From the NCBI GenBank assembly GCA_002816715.1, contig MUCJ01000004.1:1-64000 (forward strand): a DNA stretch of 64,000 nt, in the 5' to 3' direction. A program made the translations under genes and the position numbers. This DNA is from SAR202 cluster bacterium Casp-Chloro-G3. Lineage in GTDB: Bacteria > Chloroflexota > Dehalococcoidia > Lucifugimonadales > UBA3495. The notes below the pieces were generated by a model that saw nothing but the letters and a program-made list of their open reading frames with translations, was not told the DNA's origin and did no database searches. Shown here piece by piece: positions 35,910-37,805 of the stretch. Positions within the stretch are counted from its first letter, which is position 1, and each line of letters opens with the position of its first letter.

Positions 35910-36392
35910 TTACTCTGCCGGTGCCATTACCGTTTGATATAGCCTCAGGTTCTCAATCAACTGAGGCGCAAGTCTTCCCTCTCGGCTGGTAGACAGCAGC
36001 AACAACAGACGAAACTGGGCAGCCAAGTCTCGCGCCAAATTCTGCTTTGCTTCAGCCTCGGTATCACCCTCAATCGGCACCCGCAGTCCATTCAGCGGCA
36101 GTACCCTTCGGGACTCGCCAGCCCAGAATTTGTCCAAGCTGTCGATAATAGTGATCGGAATATCCCGGATCAGGACAAATGGGGATTCCTTCGGCATATC
36201 GGCAGGCCGCAGCATACCAATCTTGACCCCGGTAACGTCGGTGTGGCTAACGTGGAAGGTAGCGCGGTTGGGCTGACTGGTGCTCACCATCCTCCAGTCC
36301 AAGTCCTTTGGCGAGGCATGGTCAACGCCAGGCTCCACCAGAACGGGAAGGGCCAAGTCTTCAGCTATTGGGCGGTCTTCCGGCTGGGACAC
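35910..36392 (-). CDS. Unknown protein overlapping a DUF3467-like gene
   Basis: A 160-residue protein of no recognised family. It starts GTG at 36392, whose G is shared with the TAG stop of the upstream gene, so they are translationally coupled. 'ESPFVLIRDIPITIIDSLDKFWAGES' and 'GDTEAEAKQNLARDLAAQFRLLLLLS' are the most ordered-looking parts; the latter is a likely helix, and the protein has no membrane segment. It resembles the N-terminal and helical parts of some small chaperone-like or antitoxin-like proteins, but no specific call is supported. Last gene of a four-gene minus-strand cluster. Confidence 0.6.
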   Translation of the reverse strand: MSQPEDRPIAEDLALPVLVEPGVDHASPKDLDWRMVSTSQPNRATFHVSHTDVTGVKIGMLRPADMPKESPFVLIRDIPITIIDSLDKFWAGESRRVLPLNGLRVPIEGDTEAEAKQNLARDLAAQFRLLLLLSTSREGRLAPQLIENLRLYQTVMAPAE

Positions 36393-36754
36393 TACTGGTT
36401 CTCCATCTTTTCTGCTTCCAATTCCCAGGCAGAATATACCTGGTCTGGCAGCGCAATCGGCCCCACTGCCTCTTCGTACTCGCGCACGTGCTTGTTGGTC
36501 AACAGAGCGATAGCCTTGAGCATCTGGGGGCTGACCTTGATCCGCGTCCGCAAGATTGGCTCCCGCTCTTCCATCTGTTCGCCAAAGAAAAGCACCGCCG
36601 AGTAAAGGCTGCTGAAGATGTGCATAGAGTCGGCGTAGAAAGTAACCGGCTCGCCCGAAGCGCCATCGGACTGGGTGTCGCCCGGGTTCACATAGCTTTC
36701 TTCCTGGGGAACCTGGTCTTCCGGGGGCACATAGGGTCGCTGTATGATGGGCAT
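36392..36754 (-). CDS. DUF3467-like small protein
   Basis: A 120-residue protein. 'VTFYADSMHIFSSLYSAVLFFGE' followed by 'TRIKVSPQMLKAIALLTNKHV' and 'EYEEAVGPIALPD' matches the layout of DUF3467 (a strand 'YAN...', acidic middle, 'SP.HAK.....L..N...YE...G.I'). The similarity is by eye only. ATG at 36754 with GGAGG upstream. It overlaps by one base with the next gene. DUF3467 proteins have no established role. Confidence 0.6.
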   Translation of the reverse strand: MPIIQRPYVPPEDQVPQEESYVNPGDTQSDGASGEPVTFYADSMHIFSSLYSAVLFFGEQMEEREPILRTRIKVSPQMLKAIALLTNKHVREYEEAVGPIALPDQVYSAWELEAEKMENQ

Positions 36755-36909
36755 TGGGGCCTCCTTATCAAGAACCGGCTCCGCGTGTCGGCGACAGTTC
36801 CGCGGGTTGCAGATAGCCGGTTTTCCTGGCTGCTGGACTCAGGTGTAATTATACACACGTTGAGCCGTTGTTCAATCTGACCAAGCGGTGACTAAACAAA
36901 CCTGTCCGG

Positions 36910-37392
36910 TCAATTTGCCCAGCGACGCAGGTGGTAGCCGCCAATGGAAATGGCTTCCCATTCGTGCGTCGTCTTGCTGAGTCCGATCAGCCCAAACCGC
37001 ATCATCACCGCGTATCCCAGGTCTCCCCGAGAGGCGTTTGGGTGTCCCGCCACCGCGGTCCTCACCTCTTGGGCGGTGTAAGAGTACAAACCCAGCCGGT
37101 GCCCAGTCGACCATTCCGCCAATGCCTCATCCAATAACACCAATGCCGGGACTTTCCAGCCGATACCGGTCGGCTGGGAGCAGGCCACCGCGTCGGGGTT
37201 CCACCTGGCCATCAAACTGTCCAGAGACTCGATCAAATGAGCGACCCTCACCAAAGCGTCAACGCGATGCCGGGAACGCACTGCAATAGTCCCGGTGGCC
37301 TCAATTTGCCCGTTGCAAAACACCGCCCAGCCGGTTTCCCTCACCCCTGCGTCCAGGGCGATCAATGTCCCATTTTCGGCAACCTCGGTCAC
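36910..37392 (-). CDS. RuvC-like (RNase H fold) protein with altered catalytic residues
   Basis: A 160-residue protein with RuvC layout: 'IALDAGVRETGWAVF' (like RuvC 'GIDPGLR.TGYGV'), then 'PDAVACSQPTG' (like 'PD.VAIEEVF'), 'QEVRTAVAGHPNASRGDLGYAV' (like 'QVK.AVTG.G.A.K.QV') and 'HEWEAISIGGYH' (like 'DAADALA.A..H'). The first catalytic Asp is kept, but the usual Glu appears as Ser, and the two C-terminal Asp as His and Glu. It may be an inactive or altered nuclease. GTG start overlaps the zinc-ribbon gene by 4 bases (GTGA). Confidence 0.65.
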   Translation of the reverse strand: MTEVAENGTLIALDAGVRETGWAVFCNGQIEATGTIAVRSRHRVDALVRVAHLIESLDSLMARWNPDAVACSQPTGIGWKVPALVLLDEALAEWSTGHRLGLYSYTAQEVRTAVAGHPNASRGDLGYAVMMRFGLIGLSKTTHEWEAISIGGYHLRRWAN

Positions 37393-37655
37393 TTGATTAC
37401 CGAACCGCTGGCGAATAGCACAGAAGCAAAGACGATGCCCATTGTAACCCCATGCCGATTCGCCAAAATTGAGGTGGCGCGTTCTGTACGTTCATCGTCA
37501 CGCCGATGCTGATCTTCTCCAGGATGCTGCACCTCCGGCCACTGATATAGACCTACATAGTAATAGGTGCCACACTGCAAGCAAATCCAGTCACCATCAT
37601 CCATTGCCAGGTCACCACCGCATTTGACGCACGCCTTGAAACGAAACTGTGGCAA
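37389..37655 (-). CDS. Small zinc-ribbon protein with C-terminal hydrophobic segment
   Basis: An 88-residue protein. 'CVKCGGDL' and 'CLQCGTYY' (about 9-36) form a Cys4 zinc ribbon. A charged middle (about 45-64, many Arg, Asp, Glu) precedes a weak membrane helix 'GIVFASVLFASGSVIK' at the end. TTG start at 37655 with GGGGGGAG upstream. First gene of the cluster with the RuvC-like, DUF3467-like and unknown proteins. Function unknown; zinc ribbons of this type often bind nucleic acid or proteins. Confidence 0.6.
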   Translation of the reverse strand: MPQFRFKACVKCGGDLAMDDGDWICLQCGTYYYVGLYQWPEVQHPGEDQHRRDDERTERATSILANRHGVTMGIVFASVLFASGSVIK

Positions 37656-37805
37656 TTCTCCCCCCTTTTGCCCTCAACGGAATAAGCTTAAATTCACTCT
37701 TCAGGTTAGTCCGTCAAAGCGTTTTCTAACGCACAATTGGTAAGGAAACTGTAACAGAACAATTGTTCTTAATCAACTAGAATAGGTCATTAATACCGTT
37801 TCGGC

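Follow-up and report, generated by a model that had tools for sequence, protein, structure and literature searches.

Genes A and B of this locus (Table 1) are very probably, on the evidence of a predicted operator, a LexA/SOS operon in which a protein of RuvC fold with a degenerate catalytic site is encoded next to a small zinc-ribbon protein. RuvC is the textbook junction cutter of bacteria, and its fold and LexA-type regulation are both already known; our checks turned up no earlier description of a stand-alone pseudo-RuvC that is maintained by selection and shares an SOS operon with a zinc-ribbon protein. The computation supports the conservation of the locus, an operator shared with lexA and recA, the catalytic loss, the fold, and a separate intact RuvC in the genome, and we hold predicted LexA control of A-B and catalytic loss of B, taken together, with high confidence. 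A sequence-only reading of the window, that is, of the whole 64,000-nt stretch analyzed here, had grouped genes A to D as a single system; we concluded instead that they are two units, A-B and C-D, and that C-D merely neighbours A-B.

Table 1. Genes and predicted control elements of the locus, in window coordinates.
Feature	Position	Strand	Description
Gene A	37389..37655	-	conserved Cys4 zinc-ribbon core of ~40 aa (CxxC...CxxC), unconserved tail, TTG start
Gene B	36910..37392	-	RuvC-fold protein with degenerate catalytic site D14, S72, H143, E146
Gene C	36392..36754	-	DUF3467-like; core gene of the Dehalococcoidia family, outside the A-B unit
Gene D	35910..36392	-	unknown family; adjoins C wherever examined, outside the A-B unit
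Predicted LexA-box-type palindromic operator AGAACAATTGTTCT	37756..37769	.	in the spacer of the gene A promoter-like TTGATT-17-TACAGT
Predicted sigma-70-like promoter TTGAAC-16-TATAAT of the C-D unit	36848..36875	-	10/12 consensus

The window belongs to a 1.36-Mb assembly that is 67% complete. All four minus-strand open reading frames were verified at the coordinates of Table 1, and the layout first read from the letters was borne out: A and B overlap by 4 nt (GTGA), C and D overlap by 1 nt (TAGTG), and 155 nt lie between B and C, a gap that is often several hundred to more than 2000 nt long in relatives. A conserved neighbourhood, for which the sequence-only reading had asked, was found as well, with the order ispG-proS-D-C-B-A-(MFS)-pheS-pheT kept in most relatives. 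Median dN/dS values were 0.09 for residues 1 to 38 of A, 0.16 for B, 0.07 for C and 0.12 for D; these low values and the shared order between pheS and proS-ispG indicate that A, B, C and D are conserved genes and not chance open reading frames. No Rfam match indicated an RNA element between the genes.

The idea that all four genes make up one nucleic-acid module is favoured by their order, which most of the family shares with G058, a genome from another family. However, C was found in 47 of the family's 49 genomes, among them all 18 good ones and many g2 genomes that lack B, so that it occurs with or without A-B. D adjoined C or lay within about 1.1 kb of it in all 12 extra C loci, most of which are away from A-B or in genomes that lack it, and C-D was far from A-B in several genomes. 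In G004 (L229), G008 (L228), G011 (L227) and G022 (L231) the site lacks A-B but keeps C-D and the genes on either side. C-D also has a promoter-like site of its own in the 155-nt gap before C (a scan of the region found two sites where 0.6 were expected), and the operator was absent upstream of it. As C-D persists where A-B is lost, we take C-D to be a core pair conserved throughout the family, with its own predicted promoter, and A-B to be a separate, losable unit; the one-module explanation is already largely refuted and now hardly credible. Adjacency on a contig, in short, need not mean one module.

Against Pfam DUF3467 (PF11950) the window's C scored 22.0 bits and did not reach the gathering cut-off of 25.0; each of the 16 C relatives scanned also matched this family weakly, the best with an E value of 9.5e-5. 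D had no family match in profile searches, its structure prediction was unusable (pLDDT 42), and a resemblance of its C-terminal half to HicB was an impression that no library confirmed. Matches of C and D to profiles of solved structures were at chance level. Distant C-like (DUF3467-type) proteins occur in other families of the class (L214, L215 and L216), and in L214 and L215 their genes lie near apparent toxin-antitoxin genes (RelE-like and HTH), as judged by eye.

B matched the Pfam RuvC family (PF02075) with 24.2 bits at a cut-off of 22.2, and its AlphaFold model (pLDDT 85.8; five sequences) showed the RuvC fold over its whole length. The best structural match was Deinococcus radiodurans RuvC (Z 19.4, 148 residues, rmsd 2.5), with junction-bound Thermus RuvC at Z 19.1; phage, poxvirus and chloroplast resolvases, TEFM, Tex and Spt6 came next. 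The last three, matching the model at Z values from about 14 to 11, bring in the possibility that B is a transcription pseudonuclease of their kind, with the ribbon of A contacting RNA polymerase and the pair aiding its passage over damaged DNA during SOS. The C-terminal domain of TEFM and the RuvC-like domains of Tex and Spt6 do combine a RuvC-type fold with absence of cleavage, and the pseudonuclease core of TEFM forms a sliding clamp (PMC9950373). Nevertheless, RuvC itself matches B better (Z 18-19), and those domains are parts of multidomain transcription factors, whereas B is a lone domain of 160 aa that lies nearer to RuvC and leaves no space for helix-hairpin-helix or S1 domains. As no link of A-B to RNA polymerase genes was seen either, we regard a transcription role as quite improbable.

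Aligned with the genome's own canonical RuvC, a separate protein with D-E-D-D at the catalytic positions (107 bits), B reads D14, S72, H143 and E146, so the D-S-H-E set first noticed by eye was right. Canonical RuvC proteins of the same order carry D-E-D-D in 17 of 17 cases. Among the 27 B proteins compared, the first position is D in 23 and S, A or N in the others; at the second, S, C, G or R takes the place of Glu in every case, so that alignment with RuvC does not restore the four acids; the third is mostly H and the fourth is E in 26, with Asp at neither in any of them. Both C-terminal Asp residues of RuvC are thus missing along with the catalytic Glu. In RuvC the first Asp and the second-position Glu are strictly conserved, and His at the third position occurs naturally in the Thermus and Deinococcus enzymes (PMC3834835). 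B could accordingly be imagined as still a nuclease, its metal site re-arranged from D14, H143, E144 and E146, the more so as E144 is found in 27 of 27 sequences. This is hard to reconcile with the replacement of the one strictly conserved Glu in every B, with the use of the E70Q change to inhibit cleavage by Thermus RuvC (PMC3834835), and with the loss of D14 in four of 27 proteins that conserve the rest; we therefore consider retained nuclease activity very doubtful. From its residues, B should be unable to hold the catalytic metals.

With RuvC-DNA contacts taken from the literature (PMC3834835), the equivalent of Thermus R47 is R49 in all 27 B proteins, that of K111 (R111 in the window's B) is R or K in all 27, and that of K122 (R122; K118 equivalent) is R or K in only 18. 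B thus shares with RuvC the R47 and K107/K111 equivalents, and also a DNA-contact segment around VR-x-A-x-x-G-H-P-N-A-S-R. The position of the Phe/Tyr wedge, which stands at the exchange point (F69 in Escherichia coli), is T75 in the window's B and S or T in 26 of 27, so the Phe wedge is lacking. New conserved motifs, PSGI.WPVPALELL and HEWEA (the latter containing E144), have appeared, and helix B has been heavily rewritten (PxPALELL). Helix B makes up the greater part of the dimer interface of RuvC (PMC3864405), and for this reason a RuvC-like dimer of B is not assured. The divergence of this helix bears as well on the proposal that B is an SOS-induced antagonist of RuvC, delaying resolution during repair by forming inactive heterodimers with it or by occupying its sites. 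An intact D-E-D-D RuvC is present in the same genomes and has the same fold as B; but with the main dimer interface (PMC3864405) so strongly diverged, heterodimers look unlikely, and we rate this proposal as unlikely overall.

In a tree, B formed one clade apart from RuvC (100/100), although long branches meet at the base. One genome that has both canonical RuvC and B encodes a second intact D-E-D-D RuvC (L180; G027:C56:5700-6700), which branches basally on the RuvC side of this tree. B is under purifying selection, and its median dN/dS given above shows that, where intact, it is no relic. Close relatives of B (43-61% identity) were found in about 30 genomes of the same family; outside the family but within the order, only one sampled genome, G058, has a clear B relative. 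When the whole class was searched with a B profile, the 28 best-scoring loci read outside the family held intact RuvC and no pseudo-RuvC. A mobile or phage origin of B was also considered and rejected, as IMG/VR gave no relative by pattern or tblastn searches and phage and plasmid records gave none that was convincing. Many g2 genomes have no A-B and several g5 genomes have a broken one, so the pair is dispensable. In L057, L060, L064, L065, L069 and L070 B is broken, shortened or fragmentary, and the operators are weakened or missing.

Upstream of A lies a 14-bp palindrome of the AGAACAATTGTTCT type. In 31 scorable loci of the Dehalococcoidia family (window included, two contig-end loci left out), its 10-nt core was matched at 10/10 in 16 and at 9/10 or better in 26. 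Its usual setting in relatives, TTGtatt-[AGAACAnnTGTTCT]-GATAnt, places it between the two elements of what resembles a promoter; the TTGATT and TACAGT elements of the window's gene A were read by eye and were not listed by the consensus promoter scan. Loci without A-B also lacked the operator, and two g2 loci and the single locus from another family had a weak operator or none. Within genus g5, operator scores were 31-32 where B is intact (six genomes) and 17-26 where it is broken (five genomes; Mann-Whitney p 0.004), a difference that kinship may reduce to fewer independent events and in which some of the frame breaks may be assembly errors.

LexA is encoded in the window's genome (LexA DNA-binding domain at G000:C58, 58.8 bits). 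A Gram-positive-type LexA box was reportedly described in Dehalococcoides in 2002. The GAAC-N4-GTTC pattern is the LexA box known from Bacillus and other Gram-positive bacteria (PMC3323433), and A-B resembles that type of SOS regulon in that its palindrome also stands before lexA and recA of these genomes. A weight matrix built solely from the sites upstream of A was applied to other promoters, with a score of at least 7 as threshold. Sites were found upstream of lexA in 11 of 18 A-B genomes (shuffles, 12/580) and upstream of recA in 10 of 23 (shuffles, 14/580), whereas only one of 103 control regions from the same loci, upstream of ispG, proS, pheT, C and D, contained one. The Fisher p values for lexA and recA against controls, 3e-10 and 6e-8, count related genomes as independent and so overstate the strength of the association. 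In the window's genome the lexA site, AGAACATAAGTTTT, stands immediately before the lexA start. The exact sequence AGAACNNNNGTTYT occurs only four times in the whole assembly, and two of these are the A-B and lexA sites. No genome-wide excess of the GAAC-N4-GTTC core was found in this genome, and the case thus depends on where the sites stand and not on how many there are. It is the occurrence of the palindrome before lexA and recA, together with its near absence from control promoters, that led us to assign A-B to the predicted LexA regulon.

Two further observations concern these sites. The other two exact AGAACNNNNGTTYT matches are at G000:C34:8232-8245 (L234) and G000:C1:12317-12330 (L232), and the genes beside them may be additional SOS genes. 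In genus g2, whose genomes mostly lack A-B, the lexA promoters (L117, L121, L123 and L125) carry a different repeated motif, ATTAGCATATyGGTGCCGAA, in place of the AGAACATAAGTTTT of other genera, which may reflect a changed LexA box in g2.

The conserved part of gene A is only its Cys4 core of about 40 residues, for which the profile libraries gave only weak, sub-threshold ribbon matches. Beyond residue ~38 the length and sequence of A vary freely (dN/dS about 0.54); the membrane tail ascribed to A by the sequence-only reading is accordingly not a conserved feature. Its coupling of the zinc-ribbon gene to the RuvC-fold gene held up better, as the 4-nt overlap of A and B recurs in 16 relatives and makes translational coupling of the two likely. 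In L064, where B is damaged, one of the four cysteines encoded by gene A is lost as well.

Taking B and its control together, we propose that B is an SOS-induced, non-cleaving binder of junctions or forks, a reading of the sequences and models to which we give about an even chance. LexA, sitting on the palindrome in the promoter spacer, would keep A-B off until DNA damage led to RecA-stimulated cleavage of LexA and released the operon, whereupon A and B would be made together by coupled translation. B would then act as a RuvC-derived pseudo-resolvase, with the fold and two backbone-gripping basic residues kept and the Phe wedge gone, that could bind branched DNA such as regressed forks and Holliday junctions without cutting it. 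It might shield this DNA from the genome's active RuvC or pass it on to further proteins of DNA repair, and A would be its zinc-ribbon partner. We infer, in this scheme, the binding of LexA itself, DNA binding by B, the A-B complex, and a protective or regulatory role in SOS. The fuller proposal, a non-cleaving branch of RuvC in which a stand-alone pseudo-RuvC, SOS-induced along with a zinc-ribbon partner dedicated to it, would protect stalled forks and Holliday junctions or send them along another route, is a tentative one whose chances we put a little short of even.

B also differs from RuvC in having the additional partner gene and a LexA-type operator. To our knowledge the SOS genes described so far include no pseudo-RuvC paired with a zinc ribbon, and we found no paper describing one. 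A-B is a concrete, testable two-gene system. If the proposal is true, a damage-controlled sister of RuvC that has lost cutting and kept its grip on DNA would mean that, in the SOS response, some bacteria need junctions to be held or hidden.
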